Shown here piece after piece: positions 6,890-61,490 of a DNA stretch of 64,000 nt. Source of the stretch: Chlorobiota bacterium. Lineage in GTDB: Bacteria > Bacteroidota > Chlorobiia > Chlorobiales > Chlorobiaceae. The position numbers and the translations under genes were made by a program. The stretch's first letter is position 1, and every line of letters begins with the position of its first letter. Under the pieces are notes generated by a model. The model saw only the letters and a program-made list of their open reading frames with translations, searched no databases and was not told the DNA's origin. Where the stretch lies: NCBI GenBank assembly GCA_016866305.1, contig VGMX01000005.1:1-64000 (forward strand). Reading direction: 5' to 3'.

Positions 6890-8404
6890 GTGAACCAGAT
6901 CGTCATTATTCCCATACTGCTGCCACTGGCAAGCGCGGTCGCGATGCTGTTATTCAGCCGTTCCGTAACGATCCAGCGCATCATCAGCCTCTCGTCCTCC
7001 TGTCTGTTGCTTGCCGCGGCAGGCTGGCTTCTGGCAGCCGTCATATCCGGTGGCATGCTTTCATTGCAGGCCGGGGGCTGGGCAGCACCCTTCGGCATCA
7101 CGCTTGCCGCCGATCTGCTTTCTGCCGTTATGGTTGCGGCGTCCGCCCTGATAGGGTTTGCCACCGTGATCTATTCGTTTGCAGTGATCGATCCTGAACG
7201 GGAGCGGTTCTTTTATCACCCGCTTCTCCAACTGCTTCTGATGGGCATCAACGGTGCTTTCCTGACCGGAGATGTTTTCAACCTCTATGTCTGGTTCGAG
7301 GTCATGCTCATCTCATCCTTCGTGCTGCTGGTGCTTGGCGGGACGCCGGTCCAGCTCGAAGGAGCCATCAAGTATGTTACCATCAACCTGCTCTCCTCGT
7401 CGGTTTTCCTTGCTGCAGCCGGCATCCTGTACGGTATTGCCGGCACGCTCAATATGGCAGATCTTGCCCGGATCGCACCGCGGATTGAACAGAAGGAGCT
7501 GCTTTCCGTCGTCTCCGTGCTGTTCATGATCACCTTCGGCGTCAAGGCGGCGGTTTTCCCGCTTTTTTTCTGGCTCCCCGCATCGTACCATACGCCGCCG
7601 GTGCCGGTATCGGCGATTTTTGCCGGTCTGCTGACCAAGGTCGGCGTCTATGCCCTGATCCGTTTTTTTACGACGGTATTTCCCCATGAATCGATATTCA
7701 TCAACGACGTGCTGCTTGTGGCATCAGCCCTGACCATGCTTACCGGTGTTCTTGGCGCTGTCGCGCAGTACGATGTGAGAAAACTCCTCTCCTTTCACAT
7801 CGTCAGCCAGATCGGGTATATGATTTTCGGGCTTGCCTTGCATTCTCCGCTTGCTCTGGCCGGTGCACTGTTCTATATCGTGCACAACATCATCGCCAAA
7901 ACAAATCTGTTCTACATCAGCGGCATCGTCGAGCGCATTTCCGGTACCTGGGATCTGAAAAGGGCAGGAGGCGTCTATGCGCGTTACCCATTCATCAGCA
8001 TGCTTTTCCTGGTTCCTGCGCTGGGCCTTGCCGGAATACCTCCGCTTTCCGGATTCTGGGCGAAATTCGTCATCATCAGGGCAGGCTTCGAGGCGGGTGA
8101 GTACGCAGTAACGGGTATCGCTCTCTTCGTCAGTCTGCTGACTCTTTTTTCCATGATGAAGATCTGGAACGAGGCATTCTGGAAGGAGCGGCCACATCAG
8201 CAGGAATACGAGGGAATTAACCGTTATGTCTCGATGGGCATTGCCGGAAAGGCGATGCTCCTCTCTCCGGTCGTCATGCTCGGCCTCCTGACTATCCTGT
8301 TCGGGATTTTTTTTGAACCTGTTTTCCGTATAGCCGAATCAGCATCCCTCCAGTTGCTCGATCCTCTGCTCTACAGTACCGCGGTACTCGGGAGGAAGGA
8401 ATGA
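6890..8404 (+). CDS. mrpD: Mrp antiporter subunit D (NuoM/N-like)
   Basis: Antiporter-like membrane subunit of 504 residues, homologous to NuoM/NuoN, with about 14 helices. Family features include YVWFEVMLISSFVLL (helix 5, about 131-145), KAAVFPLFFWLPASYHTPPVPVSA (about 219-242) and the lysine-bearing helices used for proton transfer. It starts at GTG (6890) three bases after the mrpC stop. Confidence 0.94.
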   Translation: MNQIVIIPILLPLASAVAMLLFSRSVTIQRIISLSSSCLLLAAAGWLLAAVISGGMLSLQAGGWAAPFGITLAADLLSAVMVAASALIGFATVIYSFAVIDPERERFFYHPLLQLLLMGINGAFLTGDVFNLYVWFEVMLISSFVLLVLGGTPVQLEGAIKYVTINLLSSSVFLAAAGILYGIAGTLNMADLARIAPRIEQKELLSVVSVLFMITFGVKAAVFPLFFWLPASYHTPPVPVSAIFAGLLTKVGVYALIRFFTTVFPHESIFINDVLLVASALTMLTGVLGAVAQYDVRKLLSFHIVSQIGYMIFGLALHSPLALAGALFYIVHNIIAKTNLFYISGIVERISGTWDLKRAGGVYARYPFISMLFLVPALGLAGIPPLSGFWAKFVIIRAGFEAGEYAVTGIALFVSLLTLFSMMKIWNEAFWKERPHQQEYEGINRYVSMGIAGKAMLLSPVVMLGLLTILFGIFFEPVFRIAESASLQLLDPLLYSTAVLGRKE

Positions 8405-10707: not shown

Positions 10708-11249
10708 TTTCCTTCGGTTTTTGGATATTGCTCGTTGATGTACTGAAGGCCTCGCTGAACCGCATCGGTGACAGCCCTCGATGAGATGGTGGCGGCGGTC
10801 AGTTCGTCGATCTCACCGCCGTCTTTTTTCACTTTCCATGTCGTGCCCTCCAGCGCCCGGCCCCTGAACTGCTCCTTGAACTTCGCCTTGTCGATCTTGT
10901 CGCCGAGTCCCGGTGTTTCAAGGTGGTAGACCACCTTGTAGTCATATATTTTCTGTTCCGGCGAGACGCCAAGCAGAATTTCAATTTTACCGCTGTACCC
11001 GATGGTGGTTGCGGACTCCACGGCAATGCCCTTCAGGGTGCCGTTCCTGTCGTACGCCTCGTAAAACCTGGTTTTTTTTGTCTCGACGTTTTTCAGGCTG
11101 TCTATGTCGAACGGAAATATTTCCTCTATGGCCTTGCGCTTCATTTCGGCTTTGGCAAGCGCAATGGGGTCGCGGGTCAGGTCATCGACGATGGCGAGCA
11201 ATGCCGCCGCGATCAATCCTACCAGTGTCAAGGTTATGATGGGTCTCAT
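10704..11249 (-). CDS. rnfG: Rnf complex subunit G (flavoprotein)
   Basis: Single N-terminal membrane anchor ([21 protein letters not shown]) followed by a periplasmic FMN-binding domain, 181 residues. The motif [12 protein letters not shown] (about 150-161) corresponds to the flavinylation site whose threonine is esterified to FMN by ApbE. Here Ala replaces the usual Gly of SGAT/TGAT. The ATG at 11249 overlaps the rnfD stop by 4 bp. A longer open frame to 11402 is only antisense-free space inside rnfD. Confidence 0.93.
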
Positions 11250-12223
11250 GTTGTTACGGACTTCTTTTGATGGATTGCCTTTCTGTCGTTGAGATCCCAG
11301 CTGTCGATGAGCGGGACGAAACCGTTCATGATGAGGATCGCGAACGAAACCCCTTCGGGATAACCGCCCCATAAGCGGATAATCGCGGTCAGGAGGCCGC
11401 ATCCGAGTCCGAAAATCAGCTGTCCGCGTACTGAAAGGGGTGAAGTCACCATATCTGTGGCCATGAAGAACGTTCCGAGGATCAGTCCGCCGGTCACCAT
11501 GTGGAAGAGCGGCGGCGCGTAGGCTGCAGGATCGATCAGATGAAATATGGCGGTGAAGAGGAATACCGAGCCGAGCATGGTCAGCGGGATATGGAAGGTA
11601 ATGTAGCGCTTGTAGAAGAGCCAGCCGGCTCCTGCAAGAAGCGCCAGCGTTGATGTTTCGCCCATGCTTCCGTTCATGGTGCCGTAAAAGCCGTTCACGA
11701 GATCGAGCGATTTCATGGCCGCGGCCACACCGTCTGTTTTCAGGATGCCGAGCGGAGAGGCAGCAGTTTCCATGTCAACTGCAAAAGGTACCGGCCAGCT
11801 CGTCATGGCTGCCGGGAAGGAGATGAGCAGGAAGACCCTGGCTACAAGTGCCGGGTTGAAAATGTTGTATCCAAGTCCGCCGAAGACATGCTTGGCCGCA
11901 GCTATTGCGATGAATGAGCCGATGATGAGCATCCAGAACGGAAGGTTGGAAGGCACGTTCAGGGCGAGCAGCAGGCCGGTCACGAGCGCGCTGCCGTCAA
12001 GGCAGGAGGCCGGTTTTTTCCTGATGGTGTCCATGAGCCATTCGAAGCCGATGCAGCTCAGGATACAGACAAGGGTGACCAGCAGCGCCCGCATGCCGAA
12101 GAGCCAGACCGACATGATGGTGGCAGGAGCGAGCGCAAGGGCGACGTTGTACATCACCGACTCGATCGAGTCTTTGGTGCGGACGAACGGCGCATAGGAA
12201 ACGTTGAGGTTTACTGATGGCAT
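11246..12223 (-). CDS. rnfD: Rnf complex subunit D (flavoprotein)
   Basis: Membrane subunit of 325 residues, homologous to NqrB, with about ten helices. [20 protein letters not shown] (about 114-133) is a family signature. The segment [15 protein letters not shown] (about 254-268) is where RnfD/NqrB proteins carry covalent FMN on threonine. Here the aligned residue appears to be serine (codon at 11430-11432). It lies 18 bp after rnfC and overlaps rnfG. Confidence 0.94.
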
Positions 12224-54265: not shown

Positions 54266-56098
54266 TTACTCGGTGTTGTATACCATGTTCAGGGCGTTGT
54301 ACACCTTGTCAATCTCCTGAACGTACTTTTCGGTGATGGCTTTTCGTTTCAGCTTCAGGGTTGGCGTCATGTCTCCTTTCTCCACGCTGAACGCTTCGTC
54401 GATCAGGAGGAACTTGCGCACTTTCTCGTGCGTGGCGAGCTGCCGCGAGATGGTTCGCATGAGCTTTTCATAGATCTGATGAACAGCCTTGTTCTCGATC
54501 AGTTCCTTGTTGGAATTTGCCGCAATCGAGTTCTGGGCGGCAAACTCCGCGAGTTTGGCGAAATCGGGCACGATGACCGCGATGAGGAAGGGGCGTTTTT
54601 CACCGATCACGATCACCTGATCCACGAACGGGCTGTCCGCAATCAGGTTCTCGATCGGCTGGGGTGCGATGTTCTTGCCGCCGGAGGTGACGATGATGTG
54701 CTTTTTCCGGTCGGTGATCTTCAGGTAACCGTCCGGGTCGATCACTCCGATGTCCCCGCTGTAAAACCAGCCATCCCTGATCACCTCGTTTGTAGCGGTT
54801 TCGTCCTGCCAGTATCCCTTCATGATGTTGGGGCCTTTCAGCAGGATCTCGCCGTCTTCGGCAATCTTTACCTCAACGTTCGCCACTGCCGGGCCGACCG
54901 TGCCGAACTTGATCTTTTCAGGCCGGTTCACGTTGGTGACCGGTGAGGTTTCCGTCAGGCCGAACCCTTCGAGAATAGGGATCTCAAGTGCCTGGAAGAA
55001 TTCGCCTATTTTCTGCGGCAGGGCGGCACCGCCTGAAACGAAGTAGCGGAGTCTTCCGCCGAACTTCTTGCGGATCTTGTGGTACACCAGTTTGTCCGCC
55101 AGGTTATGCTGAACGGCAAGCGGCATCGATACCCGGTTTTTCTCGTTCATCTGCCGGTGGTACTCCTCGCCGGTTTTGATGGCCCAGTGAAAAATTTTCT
55201 TCTTCACGGCGCTTTCGTTGCCGATCTGCTTGAGCATGTTGGTCTTCATCCGGTCGAAAAGCCTCGGCACGGTGAAGATGATGGTGGGTTTGGCCTCGGT
55301 GATGTTGAGCGATATGGTTTCGATGCTTTCGGCCAGGTAGATGGAGGCTCCGCATGAAAAGAGCAGGTAATATCCTCCGGTACGCTCATAGGCGTGCGAG
55401 AGCGGCAGGAACGAAAGACTGCAGTCGGTTTCGTCGAGCCGGATGACCGTCGAGCAGGATTTCACGTTTTCGCAGAGGTTCCGGTGCGAGAGCATCACGC
55501 CTTTGGGCAGGCCTGTCGTGCCTGATGTGTAGATGATGGTTGCGGTATCTTCGGGCTCCACCTTGATGCCGTCGAGAATCCAGGGTTTGTCCTCGAGGAT
55601 TTTCTTGCCGGTCTTTTTTGCATGGTTAAGGTCGATCACGTCCTCGATGGGCTCTTCGAGCCTGTTCAGCACGATCACGAGGCCGAGATCCGGCAGGTTC
55701 TGCCAGATGGAGAGAATCTTTCCGAGCTGCAGCATGTTGGAAACCACGATGCCTTTGGCACTGCAGTTCTTCAGGATGTATTCGATCTGGTTCGGGGGCA
55801 GCGACGGATAGAGGGGCACGTCGATCGCGCCGATGGTGAGGATCGCCATGTCGGAAAGGTACCATCCGGGCCGGTTTTCGGAGAGAATGGCCACACGGTC
55901 CTGCGGCCCTATGCCGTTTTCCCTGAGAAAGGCCGAAAACGCATGCACATCCTTTTCCAGCGATTCGTAGGGGATCGGTTCATAGACGCCGTTGATTTTG
56001 CGGGCGATGGGGAATTTATCCTTTTTGCCCCGGTAATGGCTGAAAACGGAAGAGAAGAGCTCGGGCAGGGTATGAAATTCAGGATTGATGAGTCCCAT
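54266..56098 (-). CDS. Long-chain fatty acid-CoA ligase (AMP-dependent)
   Basis: Adenylate-forming enzyme of 610 residues of the FadD15/ACSL type. The P-loop motif [21 protein letters not shown] (about 188-208), [10 protein letters not shown] (about 379-388) and the hinge motif [25 protein letters not shown] (about 442-466) are intact. It activates long-chain fatty acids for lipid recycling. Monocistronic between the GNAT relic and the divergent sugar cluster. Confidence 0.92.
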
Positions 56099-56312
56099 AG
56101 AGCGCAGGTGTTTATCTTAAGGATGTGAGTATTGAAAAGAACAATACAGAAGCTCCCGTTCGGCGCGACGGAGCGGCGGAATTTCCGGCCCGGCGCCCGG
56201 TGGAGCAGGAAGGTTGCAAGCGATTAAAAAAATAATTAACAATACAATATTATCTTTGCAAAGAGCGTCTGGTACTTTATGGTATCTTTTATGTCTGTTT
56301 TTTACCGGTTTT

Positions 56313-57374
56313 ATGCAGTCAGCGAAAAAAAAGAGTGATAATCTGCCGGGATATGCCGGCCTTCTGTTTGGCCTTGTTCTCATCATCTACCTTTTCAGCC
56401 GGATTGACCTTGCCGGTGCAATCGGGAGGATCACTTCGATAGGGGTATCCTCGGTGCTCATTCTCCTGCCTTTCATGGTGCTGCATGTGGTCGAGACCTT
56501 CGCGTGGATAAAGGTTTTCCCGCCGGGTATTCCGGCAATTCCGTTTTTTCCCCTGCTGAGAATACAGCTTATCGCCGAAACCGTTTCCATGACGCTGCCG
56601 GCGGGAGTTGCGGTCGGCGAACCGCTCAGGCCCTATCTCTGCAAGCGTTTTATCAATCTGCCGGTACCGGAATCGGTGGCCAGCGTCGCGGTTCGCAAGC
56701 TTATGCTCGGCGCCGCACAGGGACTCTATACCCTCTTCGGGGCGCTTGCGGGCTACGGCTTCCTGCAGGCTGTTTCCAGCCGGATCATCGGGTTCGGGGG
56801 ACTCGGTATGATGATGGTTGTCAGCGGCCTGGCGGTTTTTCTGCTTTTCATGCTGTTTCTTCTGCTGCTCCTGAACGGAAAGGTTGCCCGGCAGCTCCAT
56901 ACGTTTCTGATGCTTGTGCCGTTCAGGAAGGTCAAGGCGTGGCTGCTGGAAAAGGAATCGGGTTTTCTCGACACCGACCACGCACTTGGCAGCTACAGGG
57001 GTTCGCCCTCCGGAGGACGCTTTCTGGCGATGAGTTACTACGTGCTTGCGTGGTTCATGCTTACGGCCGAGAGTTATATTATATTGCATCTTCTGGGGGT
57101 CGAGATCTCATTTTACCGGATTTTCGCAATCGACATCGCCCTTGCCATGCTCCGTTCGCTGTTTTTCTTCATTCCTTCCGGGCTTGGCGTGCAGGATCTC
57201 GGCTATCTGGTTTTTTTTCAGGCGATCGGCATGCATGATTTTTCGGCGACCGGTGCGGCATTTGTGCTGTTGAGGCGGTTCAAGGAGGTGCTCTGGTATG
57301 CTGCCGGTTACGGCGTCATGTTTCTGTCGGGGGTCCACCTCAAGGATGCGGAACGTATCAGCGGCAGTGAGTGA
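56313..57374 (+). CDS. Flippase-like membrane protein (UPF0104/LPG-synthase TM domain family)
   Basis: Protein of about 353 residues with eight or more helices. LPAGVAVGEPLRPYLCKR (about 93-110) and FFIPSGLGVQDLGYLVFF (about 285-302) are hallmarks of the lysylphosphatidylglycerol synthase TM region family, often found with polysaccharide or glycolipid genes. ATG at 56313 is preferred; a TTG at 56214 would add 33 residues. The stop overlaps the next start (TGATGA). Confidence 0.8.
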   Translation: MQSAKKKSDNLPGYAGLLFGLVLIIYLFSRIDLAGAIGRITSIGVSSVLILLPFMVLHVVETFAWIKVFPPGIPAIPFFPLLRIQLIAETVSMTLPAGVAVGEPLRPYLCKRFINLPVPESVASVAVRKLMLGAAQGLYTLFGALAGYGFLQAVSSRIIGFGGLGMMMVVSGLAVFLLFMLFLLLLLNGKVARQLHTFLMLVPFRKVKAWLLEKESGFLDTDHALGSYRGSPSGGRFLAMSYYVLAWFMLTAESYIILHLLGVEISFYRIFAIDIALAMLRSLFFFIPSGLGVQDLGYLVFFQAIGMHDFSATGAAFVLLRRFKEVLWYAAGYGVMFLSGVHLKDAERISGSE

Positions 57375-58330
57375 TGAAGAAGAAGATTCTCTTTATCTGC
57401 GGTTCGATGAACCAGACCACCCAGATGCACCAGATTTCGGGATGGCTGGGCGATTACGATCGGTATTTTTCCCCGTTTTTCAGCGACGGACTGCTTGGCC
57501 TGGCCAGCGGCATGGGGTTGCTCGAATTCACCATACTTGGCAAAAAACGCTCCAGCAGGGCGCTTCAGTACCTGCTCGACCATGACCTGCAGCTCGACAT
57601 TGGAGGTATGGCCCGCGACTACGATCTGGTGGTTACCTGTACCGACCTGATCGTGCCCAAAGAGATCCGCCGCAGGAAGATCGTACTGGTGCAGGAGGGA
57701 ATGACTGAACCGGAAACCGTGCTTTTCCATCTCGCACGGAACTTCCGCTGGGTGCCGCGCTGGGTGGCCGGTACGGCCACGACAGGCCTCAGCGATGCGT
57801 ACGAAAAGTTCTGCGTAGCCAGCGAAGGGTACCGTGACCTGTTCATCCGCAAAGGGGTCAACGCCGAAAAACTGGTGGTGACCAGCATACCGAATTTCGA
57901 CAATTGCGAGCGATACCTGCGGAATTCGTTCGAGCACCGGGACTTCGTGCTGGTCTGCACCTCCGACAACCGCGAAACCTTTATTTACGAGAATCGGCGC
58001 CGGAACATCGAGAAGTATCTCGATATGTCCGGGGGGCATCAGCTCATCTTCAAGCTTCATCCCAACGAGAACGCCCGGAGAGCCGTGCGCGAAATCAGTA
58101 CCCTGGCTCCCGGCAGCCTCGTGTTCACCGAAGGCAGGACCGAGGAGATGATCGCAAACTCCCGCATGCTGATCGCACAGTTTTCTTCCACCATTTTCGT
58201 GGGGTCGGCTCTCAACAAGACCGTGCACTGCAGCCTGACGCCCGAAGAGCTCAGGGCGCTCACACCGCTGCAGAACAAGTCGGCAGCCCGACGGATTGCC
58301 GATGTGTGCCGTAACGTTATCGACGGATAG
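57374..58330 (+). CDS. Unknown protein, GT-B / CDP-glycerol-transferase-like
   Basis: Protein of 318 residues. It starts [21 protein letters not shown], resembling the N-terminal Rossmann domain of GT-B transferases or sugar epimerases. A second domain contains FKLHPNEN (about 229-236) and [15 protein letters not shown] (about 270-284), reminiscent of the HPN...SS motifs of CDP-glycerol/teichoic-acid-type transferases. ATG overlaps the previous stop and the next gene follows by 8 bp, so it is part of the sugar cluster and may transfer the product. Assignment tentative. Confidence 0.6.
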
Positions 58331-58338
58331 GAGCCCCG

Positions 58339-59055
58339 ATGAAGACTGTTGCCATCATTCCCGCACGAGGCGGCTCGAAAGGGCTGCCGGGAAAAAACAT
58401 CCATCCCGTGGCCGGGCGTCCATTGCTTGCCTGGAGCGTGCAGCAGGCCCTCGATTCGGTACGCATCGACCGGGTGTTCGTTTCTACCGACGATCCCGCA
58501 ATTGCCTCGGTCGCAAGGTGCTGCGGAGCCGGGGTGATCGACCGTCCGGCAGGACTCTCCGGCGACAGGGCCACCTCGGAATCCGCATTGCTGCACGCCA
58601 TCGACCGGCTTGAATCGGAACATGGCATCGAGGTCGGCCTTGTGGTGTTCCTGCAGGCAACCTCTCCGCTGCGCAAGCCGGGGGATATCGACCGGGCAAT
58701 CGAGAGGTTCGAGGCCGAAGGTGCCGATTCGCTGATTTCCGTTACCCGCCTCGATGACCTCACGCTGTGGGAAAAGAAGGCTCACGGCTGGGAGAGCGTG
58801 AATTTCGACTGGCGTAACCGAGGCATGCGCCAGGATCGTGCCGAGCAGTATATCGAGAACGGCTCCATCTACCTCGTCACTCCCGAGGTGCTGAAAACTT
58901 CCGGAAACCGGATCGGACGGAGACTCGCCGTCTACGAAATGGAGTTCTGGCAGACGTGGGAGATTGACACGCTTGAAGAAATCGATTTAATTGAGTATTA
59001 CCTGTTCAAGAAAAACCTGGCGAGCCAGGAATCCGGTCCGGAGAACCCATCATAA
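58339..59055 (+). CDS. CMP-ulosonate synthetase (NeuA-type cytidylyltransferase)
   Basis: Protein of 238 residues. The CTP-binding loop [16 protein letters not shown] (about 6-21) and the downstream [15 protein letters not shown] (about 111-125) are typical of acylneuraminate cytidylyltransferases (NeuA/PseF/LegF branch) rather than KdsB. A C-terminal catalytic-metal region [11 protein letters not shown] is present. It should activate an eight- or nine-carbon acidic sugar as its CMP derivative. No NeuB-type synthase gene is nearby, so the substrate is likely derived from Kdo or made elsewhere. Confidence 0.85.
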
Positions 59056-59066
59056 TCCATCAGCCC

Positions 59067-60197
59067 ATGCAATTCTTTCTTTCCACCGATCTTCTGATCG
59101 GCGTCAATGAGGCCCTGAACCTGCAGGAGCAGGTACGGCAAGCAGGCATGAAGAAGCCCGGTATCATCTACGATGCAAATCTTTCCTCGAACCTTTATTT
59201 CCAGGATGTGCTCAAGGGGCTTGTCGGCCGTTTCGGTGACTGCGTGGTCTACAGCAACGAGTTCAGGGGAGAGCCCACCTACACCCATCTCGAAAATGTG
59301 GCGGAATTCTTTCGCAGGAACGTGCCGGACGGCATCGTGGCCATCGGGGGCGGCAGCACGCTCGATCTCGGCAAGGGGGTTGCGCTCCTGCTCACCAATC
59401 AGGTGCCCGCACTTTCCCTGAAGGGGTTTCCGGCAGACGTCCGCGATCCGGTGCCGCTCGTCACCGTGCCGTCGCTTCTCGGCAGCGGTGCGGAAATCAG
59501 CTTCAATGCGGTGTTCATCGACGAAGCCGAAGGACGCAAGCTCGGCATCAACAGCCGGAAGAACTTTCCCAGAAAAACCGTGATCGACCCCCAGCTCTCC
59601 ATGACCGCTCCGATGGAGAGCGTGATCGCCTCGGCAATGGACAGCCTTGTGCACTGCGTGGACAGCTTCGGTTCGCAGAAACACACCCCGCTGAGCAGGA
59701 TATTCGCCATCGAAGGGTTCCAGCGCACCTTCTACGCGCTCCAGCAGGGTCAGCTCGACCGCGCGGAGTCGCGCATCGACCTCGCCATCGGCAGCGTCTG
59801 CGGCACCACCGCGCTTATGAACTCCGGCGACGGACCCACCAACGGATTTGCCTACTATCTCGGTGTCAGGCACAAGGTGCCGCACGGGCTTGCCGGCGCC
59901 ATCTTCCTCAAGGAGGTGATGCGCTACAACTTCGACCACGGCTATGAAAAGTATGCCATGCTCAATCCCATGCGCTCCTCTCCCTCGCCGAAGGAGGCTA
60001 CCCAGGAACTGCTCGGGGAGCTGGACGAGCTGTACCGACAGCTTGACATACCGAACCTCGTGCCTTACGGCTACGGCAAGGGAAACGCCGCCGAACTTGC
60101 AAAAAACGTATCGGAAGCCCTCAAGGGATCGTTTGCCGGCAACCCCGTAGCCTTTACCGAGGATTCGGCACGTCAGGTGATCTACAACCTGACCTGA
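59067..60197 (+). CDS. Iron-type alcohol dehydrogenase, KdnB-like (Kdo 8-oxidase candidate)
   Basis: Group III alcohol dehydrogenase of 376 residues with the nucleotide-binding VAIGGGSTLDLGKG (about 91-104). Metal ligands visible are Asp192 and His196 (MDSLVHCVDSF) and His273 (VPHGLAG). The position of the His that is the third His ligand in E. coli FucO (His263) reads Asn259 here. The MDxxxHCVxS block and the neighbouring aminotransferase and cytidylyltransferase genes fit KdnB, which oxidises C8 of Kdo. Substrate not proven. Confidence 0.75.
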   Translation: MQFFLSTDLLIGVNEALNLQEQVRQAGMKKPGIIYDANLSSNLYFQDVLKGLVGRFGDCVVYSNEFRGEPTYTHLENVAEFFRRNVPDGIVAIGGGSTLDLGKGVALLLTNQVPALSLKGFPADVRDPVPLVTVPSLLGSGAEISFNAVFIDEAEGRKLGINSRKNFPRKTVIDPQLSMTAPMESVIASAMDSLVHCVDSFGSQKHTPLSRIFAIEGFQRTFYALQQGQLDRAESRIDLAIGSVCGTTALMNSGDGPTNGFAYYLGVRHKVPHGLAGAIFLKEVMRYNFDHGYEKYAMLNPMRSSPSPKEATQELLGELDELYRQLDIPNLVPYGYGKGNAAELAKNVSEALKGSFAGNPVAFTEDSARQVIYNLT

Positions 60198-60332: not shown

Positions 60333-61490
60333 ATGGCAGGAGCAGAACTTATAGGCCGCGAAGAGCTGGCAGAAATACAGGAGCTTTTCAGTCACGACAA
60401 GGTGAACCTTTACCGCTATGGAGGGGGGAACTACAAGGCTCGGGAGTTCGAGGAGCGGTTCGCCCGGTACATGGGGGTAAAGTACGCGCACGCGGTTTCC
60501 TCCGGTACGGCGGCCATTCACTGCGCGCTTGCCGGCGCGGGTATCGGTCCCGGTGACGAGGTGATCACCACCGCCTGGACCTTCATCGCCCCGGTCGAGG
60601 CCATCAGCGCACTCGGCGCAGTGCCGGTACCGGTGGAGATTGACGAAACCTACCACCTCGACCCGCTGGAGGTGGAAAAGGCCATCACTCCCTCCACGAA
60701 AGCCGTGGTAGCCATTCCCATGTGGGCCCCGCCTCAAATGGACGAACTGGCGGCGATCTGCGAGCGCCGCAACATCATGCTCATCGAGGACGCCGCCCAG
60801 GCGCTGGGAGCCTCCTACAAGGGTCGCAAGCTTGGCACCATCGGCCGGGTGGGTTCCTTCTCCTTCGACGCGGGCAAGACCCTGCACACCGGAGAGGGCG
60901 GCATCATCGTCACCAACGACCGGGAGGTGTACGATCGTGCAGCCGAGTTCTCCGACCACGGCCACATGCACCGGGAGGGGCTGCCGCGCGGCAAGGACCC
61001 GCGCAGGGCCAAAGGGCTCAATCTGCGCCTCAGCGAGGTGACAGCGGCCATAGGCCTGGCACAGCTCGGCAAGATCGACCTGATTCTCTCGCGCACGAAG
61101 GAGAACAAGAGGAAAATCAAGGAGGCCATACGCCATCTTGGCAACATCACCCTCAGGCCTTTTTCGGACGAGGAGGGCTCGCAGGGCGACACGATGATCT
61201 TCCGCGTGCGCGACCGCGAGGCGGCCCTGCAGTTCGAAGCGCACCTCATGGAACGGGGCTTCGGCACAAAAATCCTGCCGGAAGCGCTCGACTGGCACTT
61301 CGCCGGCGTATGGAACCACCTGCTCCCCGAGTTCGATCGCTATCGTGACGCCGATCTCGAAACGCTCTGGCCGAGAACCGGCGCCATGCTGCGCAGCAGC
61401 ATCTGCCTGAACATCCCGGTGCTGATGGACGATGCCACCATCGGGCGGCTCATCGAGGCAATCATCACCGGATCGGAGAGGATCGGGTAG
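60333..61490 (+). CDS. DegT-family aminotransferase, KdnA-like
   Basis: PLP sugar aminotransferase of 385 residues. The PLP lysine is in FSFDAGKTLHTGEGG (about 177-191), with VSSGTAAIHCAL (about 55-66) and EDAAQALGA. The block SDHGHMHREGLPRGKDPRRAKGLN-type sequence (about 208-231) resembles KdnA, which aminates C8 of the oxidised Kdo. It is the last gene of the cluster, 135 bp after the dehydrogenase and before a terminator. Confidence 0.8.
   Translation: MAGAELIGREELAEIQELFSHDKVNLYRYGGGNYKAREFEERFARYMGVKYAHAVSSGTAAIHCALAGAGIGPGDEVITTAWTFIAPVEAISALGAVPVPVEIDETYHLDPLEVEKAITPSTKAVVAIPMWAPPQMDELAAICERRNIMLIEDAAQALGASYKGRKLGTIGRVGSFSFDAGKTLHTGEGGIIVTNDREVYDRAAEFSDHGHMHREGLPRGKDPRRAKGLNLRLSEVTAAIGLAQLGKIDLILSRTKENKRKIKEAIRHLGNITLRPFSDEEGSQGDTMIFRVRDREAALQFEAHLMERGFGTKILPEALDWHFAGVWNHLLPEFDRYRDADLETLWPRTGAMLRSSICLNIPVLMDDATIGRLIEAIITGSERIG

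Follow-up and report, generated by a model that had tools for sequence, protein, structure and literature searches.

A probable CMP-ulosonate transferase of a new GT-B family, encoded next to a CMP-sugar synthetase gene in Chlorobiaceae

Near the end of the window, by which I mean the whole stretch of 64,000 nucleotides analysed here (the start of contig VGMX01000005.1 from a Chlorobiota bacterium of the family Chlorobiaceae), lies a cluster of genes that appear to serve the synthesis and use of an ulosonate (Table 1). The gene of interest begins with ATG at 57374, or alternatively with GTG one codon upstream, at 57371. It ends with the stop codon at 58328-58330, giving a product of 318 amino acids. 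The initial annotation had the gene overlapping that of a flippase-like protein and lying 8 bp before that of a CMP-sugar synthetase, and the sequence bears out both claims. The TGA of the flippase-like gene (57372-57374) shares one nucleotide with the ATG, and the synthetase gene, starting at 58339, leaves a gap of 8 nt. An AGGAG sits at the stop codon of the gene of interest. Judged solely by this gene order, the gene would be expressed together with its neighbours.

Table 1. Features of the cluster, in window coordinates
Feature	Positions	Strand	Basis
AMP-binding acyl-CoA-synthetase-like gene, divergent neighbour	54266..56098	-	PF00501, E 2.5e-81
Flippase-like membrane protein, LPG_synthase_TM	56214..57374	+	PF03706, E 4.6e-21, above cut-off
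TGATG, 1-nt overlap of flippase-like stop codon (TGA 57372-57374) and ATG	57372..57376	+	sequence
GT-B protein, probable CMP-ulosonate transferase, 318 aa	57374..58330	+	ORF, conservation, model and fold search
QEG motif, residues 107-109	57692..57700	+	invariant, 34/34
HPNE motif, residues 229-232	58058..58069	+	invariant, 34/34
S-S/T motif, residues 271-272	58184..58189	+	S271 in 34/34; residue 272 is S in 23, T in 11
CMP-sugar (NeuA/PseF-like) synthetase	58339..59055	+	PF02348, E 4.6e-27
Iron-containing alcohol dehydrogenase, KdnB position	59067..60197	+	PF00465, E 1.5e-33
DegT aminotransferase, KdnA-like	60333..61490	+	5k8b (KdnA)

The flippase-like protein also matches the HpnL model (E 3.3e-24, below that model's cut-off). 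The closest solved relative of the CMP-sugar synthetase is PpNeuA (E 4.8e-36). It is the second such enzyme of the organism, since the genome has a separate KdsB that scores above the curated cut-off. Compared by sequence, the DegT aminotransferase has KdnA (5k8b, E 1.5e-80) as clearly its best solved relative, with the runner-up at 1.7e-47. The iron-containing alcohol dehydrogenase matches KdnB (5k8c) at E 1.7e-16, rank 25 of 41, and methanol and lactaldehyde dehydrogenases score better. The AMP-binding gene is kept in most Chlorobiales loci for which enough upstream sequence was fetched.

The gene is present in 137 of 394 genomes drawn from the phylum, usually as one copy per genome, as in the genome of the window. 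A frame conserved in so many genomes is not a chance ORF. The carriers are 83 Chlorobiaceae, the window's own family, and 54 members of other families. Most matches are near full length, at 44-90% identity, and the few short fragments come from fragmented assemblies. One genome (G099) has a second copy (L049:6668-7687), 44% identical and without an ulosonate partner nearby. A scan of named genomes confirmed at least 550 relatives. The 80 best of these were retained and comprise 71 from Chlorobiaceae or Chlorobiales and nine from Chloroherpetonaceae, Ignavibacteria, Poribacteria, Limisphaerales, Desulfobacula and Methylobacter. A plasmid of Methylomagnum also carries a homologue. In a tree of 43 members, the five from Chlorobiaceae form one clade (100/100), nested in a broader clade of 24 (97/97) whose inner branching is mostly unresolved and which also takes in other Chlorobiales, Poribacteria, the pair L145/L147, Methylobacter, Ignavibacteria and families f5, f29 and f35.

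Profile searches do not put a name to the family. For the window protein, a Pfam search up to E 1 comes back empty, Epimerase_2 and Glyphos_transf included, and the match of the protein to NCBIfam TIGR04396, a model of surface carbohydrate proteins, is weak (E 0.0029), with 16.8 bits where the cut-off is 125. Pfam scans of 34 members give weak matches to Epimerase_2 in 27 (best E 2.4e-6), MGDG_synth in 18 (best 2.1e-4) and Glyphos_transf in 16 (best E 8.1e-7), and none of these sequence matches is decisive. Little came from a PDB sequence search with the single protein or from a search of PHROGs. Literature queries, made without a locus name or accession and covering few subscription journals, found no paper on this protein family.

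By Foldseek and VIA-align, an AlphaFold2 model built with 26 sequences (mean pLDDT 86.2, pTM 0.86) has the GT-B fold over the whole length of the protein. The two-domain layout first read from the translation is thus seen in the model and in its full-length matches to two-domain GT-B chains. Top neighbours are UDP-GlcNAc 2-epimerases/NeuC (Z 16-18, rmsd 3.5-4.8 over 256-281 residues, 8-16% identity). Others are PglA (Z 15.6), TagF (Z 15.5), TarL (Z 14.6) and the polysialyltransferase 5wc6 (Z 14.4, rmsd 4.1 over 254). That epimerases head the list speaks against the transferase assignment of the initial annotation, but the resemblance, at so low an identity, is one of fold only. The fold, in short, is ordinary and the family is new.

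An alignment of 34 members, 44-81% identical to the window protein, leaves the following residues invariant: QEGM (107-110), T196, D198, R200-E201, K227, HPNE (229-232), S271, L280, K282, P298 and Q300. The HPN and SS-type motifs picked out earlier from the single sequence are residues 229-231 and 271-272. E108-G109 and H229-P230, each found in 34 of 34, are 121 residues apart, as compared with 125 for the corresponding motifs of the meningococcal polysialyltransferase. According to the study of that enzyme (PMC2169525), its full activity depends on both a D/E-D/E-G motif (E153, G154) and an HP motif (H278, P279), the latter helps to bind the CMP donor, and the two motifs are common to families GT38, GT52 and GT80. 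The motifs, so far as sequence can tell, favour a CMP-sugar transferase, with E108 as putative catalytic acid/base and H229 and S271 as putative ligands of CMP.

The most constant companion of the gene is a cytidylyltransferase gene. Among 35 loci outside Chlorobiaceae (fetched from 55 such places and chosen for spread), it starts within 300 nt downstream in 32. The exceptions are L036, where it is about 1 kb away, and L035 and L049, whose stretches contain none on the same strand. It is adjacent in 67 of the 71 Chlorobiaceae loci, two of the remainder having an insertion of about 1.3 kb and two ending too early. Adjacency holds for four of ten other named loci (one of them, L142, the same as L032). 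Four Poribacteria loci among the ten have a NeuA-like cytidylyltransferase gene upstream in the same locus, and the stretches of L145 and L147 have no cytidylyltransferase gene on the same strand. In two Poribacteria loci (L144:2751-4037 and L148:6813-8096), the NeuA-like ORF, of 427-428 aa, also has a HAD phosphatase match and looks like a fusion. In two Chlorobiaceae drafts (L087, about 7078-7974; L088, about 11077-12054), two small ORFs on the opposite strand lie between the gene and the CMP synthetase gene, and by eye they resemble a pair of GNAT-type toxin and DUF1778-like antitoxin.

The genes that would make the sugar are less constant. In Chlorobiaceae, the order is flippase-like gene, gene of interest, CMP synthetase, iron-containing alcohol dehydrogenase and KdnA-like aminotransferase. 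The common order elsewhere is gene of interest, KdsB-like cytidylyltransferase, class III aminotransferase, SDR, KdsC-family HAD and NeuB, with a split transketolase after the cytidylyltransferase in many loci outside Chlorobiaceae. Of the genomes tested for the class III aminotransferase, the five Chlorobiales from outside that family have it, at 62% identity, and the two Chlorobiaceae lack it; the best match in these two, only 37-38% identical, is taken to be HemL. Because matches to KdnA and KdnB occur, among the loci fetched, only in those of Chlorobiaceae, the KdnA/KdnB-like module is probably a later replacement in that family. And since the sugar-making genes change while the gene of interest and its cytidylyltransferase stay, the gene would act after the sugar is activated.

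A second companion shows up at the level of whole genomes. The genome of the window has a HAD-NeuB gene pair (G000:C2), unlinked to the window cluster, and its NeuB is 70% identical to that of Methylomagnum. A search of the same 394 genomes with this NeuB, at E <= 1e-80, finds the subfamily in 137: 132 have both genes, 5 only the gene of interest, 5 only NeuB and 252 neither. Other NeuB paralogues, in 15 genomes, score at E 1e-35 to 1e-50, far from the limit. All 54 carriers outside Chlorobiaceae have the subfamily. The gene stands without NeuB in G295, G299, G323, G342 and G350, which are Chlorobiaceae drafts with estimated completeness of 77-91%, and NeuB stands without the gene in G334, G338, G346 and G354 (66-86% complete) and in G219 (97% complete). 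Fisher tests of such co-occurrence ignore relatedness, to which counts within families are a partial answer. In the mixed families f10, f19 and f33, counted by eye, both genes are found in the same genomes in 19 of 25, 5 of 10 and 6 of 13 cases, a match not expected from relatedness alone. The co-occurrence that the initial annotation expected is therefore strong for ulosonate genes in general, and that with the KdnA/KdnB-like pair in particular is confined to Chlorobiaceae loci. Partners outside that family are the cytidylyltransferase, class III aminotransferase, SDR, HAD and NeuB. The genes at L145 and L147 are close relatives of the window gene (58% and 60% identity). In the draft genome of L145 (G394), the only NeuB paralogues are 33-40% identical; in that of L147 (G395), likewise a draft, a NeuB search at E <= 1e-10 finds nothing. 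Both genomes have KdsB above cut-off. Their donor may be another CMP-sugar.

Some partners suggest lipids. In five Chlorobiales genomes outside Chlorobiaceae (L172-L176), the same kind of gene lies beside NeuB; one of these, when tested, proved to be an FA_hydroxylase (PF04116, E 2e-28). At a limit of E <= 1e-60, which sets aside 23 genomes with weaker matches (1e-31 to 1e-39), this subfamily is found in 52 of the 394 genomes, 50 of which carry the gene of interest. Fifty of the 54 carriers outside Chlorobiaceae have it, leaving G322, G333, G345 and G389, and it occurs apart from the gene of interest only in G128 and G334, neither of them Chlorobiaceae. None of the 75 FA_hydroxylase matches at E <= 1e-30 in the 394 genomes comes from Chlorobiaceae. 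This absence is to be expected, since enzymes of the class need O2 and Chlorobiaceae are strict anaerobes, yet it makes the link to lipids weaker for the window itself: in Chlorobiaceae, only the flippase-like and acyl-CoA-synthetase-like neighbours provide that link. A flippase-like gene adjoins the gene of interest in Chlorobiales and at L037, L038 and L059, and there are acyltransferase genes near L038, L051 and L059. At L173 and L174, a gene of the endonuclease/exonuclease/phosphatase family is also near NeuB (PF03372, tested at L174). At L145:24-12219 and L147:47-14308, the gene of interest is beside genes for an oxoamine-synthase-like protein (alpha-oxoamine synthase) and an ABC transporter. 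The oxoamine-synthase-like gene of L147 is, by eye, fused to an apparent acyl-AMP ligase. L145 also has a large polyketide-synthase-like ORF, and L147 has sulfatase-family and NAD-epimerase genes. These two loci, with no cytidylyltransferase gene, possibly represent a lipid pathway of another kind.

I propose that the protein is probably a CMP-ulosonate transferase of a new GT-B family, with the acceptor left open. Transfer activity is suggested along with a CMP-ulosonate donor, the latter by genomic context and motifs. The adjacent cytidylyltransferase would make a CMP-activated (amino-)ulosonate, and the GT-B transferase would move the (amino-)ulosonate from CMP to its acceptor, for which a membrane lipid is the likeliest candidate. 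In Chlorobiaceae, the flippase-like protein may then move the product across the membrane. The lipid acceptor and an amino group on the sugar are the more weakly indicated parts of this scheme. The initial annotation considered a glycosyl- or glycerophosphotransferase, which fits the fold, motifs, gene order and co-occurrence, and the same four lines of evidence support its further prediction of a possible transferase for the activated sugar.

The protein might instead make a precursor of the ulosonate, as a NeuC/WecB-like 2-epimerase or hydrolase acting on a sugar nucleotide. Such enzymes provide the best fold matches, Epimerase_2 is the Pfam model touched by most members, though not by the window protein itself, and NeuC-type enzymes belong to sialic acid pathways. 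The catalytic residues of the epimerase, H213 and the SGGIQEE (GG-x-x-EE) stretch in E. coli WecB, appear to be replaced here, the first aligning with the invariant D198 and the second with FSSTIFV, in an alignment that is tentative (hhalign probability 6%, E 0.006). Against this reading, too, the gene is kept while the sugar-making genes change, even at loci with no nameable UDP-sugar genes. On account of this residue comparison and of the persistence of the gene, I rank an epimerase below a transferase and consider it improbable. There is still less to be said for the glycerophosphotransferase option of the initial annotation, a TagF/TarL-like CDP-alcohol phosphotransferase. TagF and TarL share with the window protein the GT-B fold, the SS stretch and the region of the HP motif. 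They are among its structural neighbours, Glyphos_transf is touched by 16 of the 34 members, and there is a profile match to the TagF-like Cps3D around the SS motif (E 3e-4). But the window protein is about half the size of TagF, and its partners are cytidylyltransferases of the CMP-ulosonate type and a NeuB-type synthase, with no CDP-glycerol or CDP-ribitol genes found. Given this genomic context, a TagF-like function is very hard to credit.

If the protein is a CMP-ulosonate transferase, the sugar could go not to a free membrane lipid but to a protein or to a glycan of the LPS core, O-antigen or capsule. For the known bacterial enzymes of GT38, GT52 and GT80, which transfer sialic acid from CMP, the acceptors are glycans (PMC2169525), and the Methylomagnum homologue adjoins several glycosyltransferase genes. 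On the other hand, the FA_hydroxylase subfamily tracks the transferase gene outside Chlorobiaceae, the flippase-like gene and, at L145 and L147, the oxoamine-synthase genes are its neighbours, and the annotated Chlorobiales loci contain no obvious polysaccharide cluster. I regard a glycan or protein acceptor as somewhat unlikely, and give a lipid acceptor a little under an even chance.

Which lipid might it be? A neuraminic-acid-like component was reportedly described by Jensen and coworkers in 1991 in the aminoglycosphingolipid of Chlorobium, and an amino-ulosonate head group supplied by this cluster would fit that name. The lipid is from Chlorobium limicola (Jensen et al. 1991, as cited in PMC11762602, which describes the genome of another bacterium). 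The genome of the window encodes a serine palmitoyltransferase whose best solved relatives are 8guh and 3a2b (E 6e-113). At L155:2842-5274, on contig C18 of that genome, the serine palmitoyltransferase gene is divergent from an NAD-epimerase gene, and the two resemble a bacterial sphingolipid pair. Sphingolipid as the universal acceptor is rejected, because several carriers have no clear serine palmitoyltransferase. With the enzyme of the window's genome as query at E <= 1e-60, 381 of the 394 genomes match, a limit that admits paralogues and does not discriminate. The best matches in carriers G001, G006, G011 and G016 reach only E 1e-36 to 1e-49, and those in G072 and G146 only 1e-65 to 1e-68. 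Five of the 83 Chlorobiaceae carriers (G063, G288, G291, G319 and G370, all drafts in at least 110 contigs) have no match at E <= 1e-60. A bolder version of the proposal is that this is a new family of CMP-ulosonate:lipid transferases of the bacterial ganglioside type, capping a ceramide-type lipid with an amino-ulosonate, and that the product in Chlorobium is the aminoglycosphingolipid of 1991. I think this unlikely, but if it is true, many Bacteroidota, Poribacteria and methanotrophs would produce similar sialic-acid-like lipids with the same cassette, which in groups other than Chlorobiaceae includes a lipid hydroxylase.

The proposal of a CMP-ulosonate transferase gives a probable function to a family that has no Pfam model, is present in nearly all Chlorobiaceae examined and is scattered through several phyla. 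It also marks out a cassette in which genes for a CMP-activated ulosonate keep company with partners of the lipid type. If the acceptor is indeed a lipid, then the gene becomes a candidate for the synthesis of ulosonate-bearing, ganglioside-like bacterial membrane lipids, and the old chemical report on Chlorobium becomes directly testable.

How does the cluster compare with known systems? It resembles the KdnA/KdnB pathway to 8-amino-Kdo of Shewanella in its DegT neighbour, with KdnA the clearly best solved relative. It differs in its alcohol dehydrogenase, to which KdnB is a more distant relative than methanol and lactaldehyde dehydrogenases are, and in that the genome also has a NeuB and a second CMP synthetase. 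The retaining beta-Kdo transferases KpsC and WbbB (GT107 and GT99) have, according to the part of PMC10148158 available, an invariant QXXXD and an HP motif. The family described here would share with them CMP-ulosonate chemistry, and does share the HP motif. QXXXD is not conserved, the best alignment column having it in 4 of 34 members, and for that reason a retaining beta-Kdo transferase of this type is rejected. The bacterial sialyl- and polysialyltransferases of GT38, GT52 and GT80 have the same GT-B fold and the HP motif found in every member aligned, and, like this family, go with a NeuA-like synthetase, here a neighbour, and a NeuB, here elsewhere in the genome. The Pfam search of the window protein, up to E 1, gives no sequence-level match to them, and the QEG of all 34 members begins with Q, outside the strict definition of D/E-D/E-G. 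Unlike theirs, the cassette in which this transferase is found includes genes of the lipid type.
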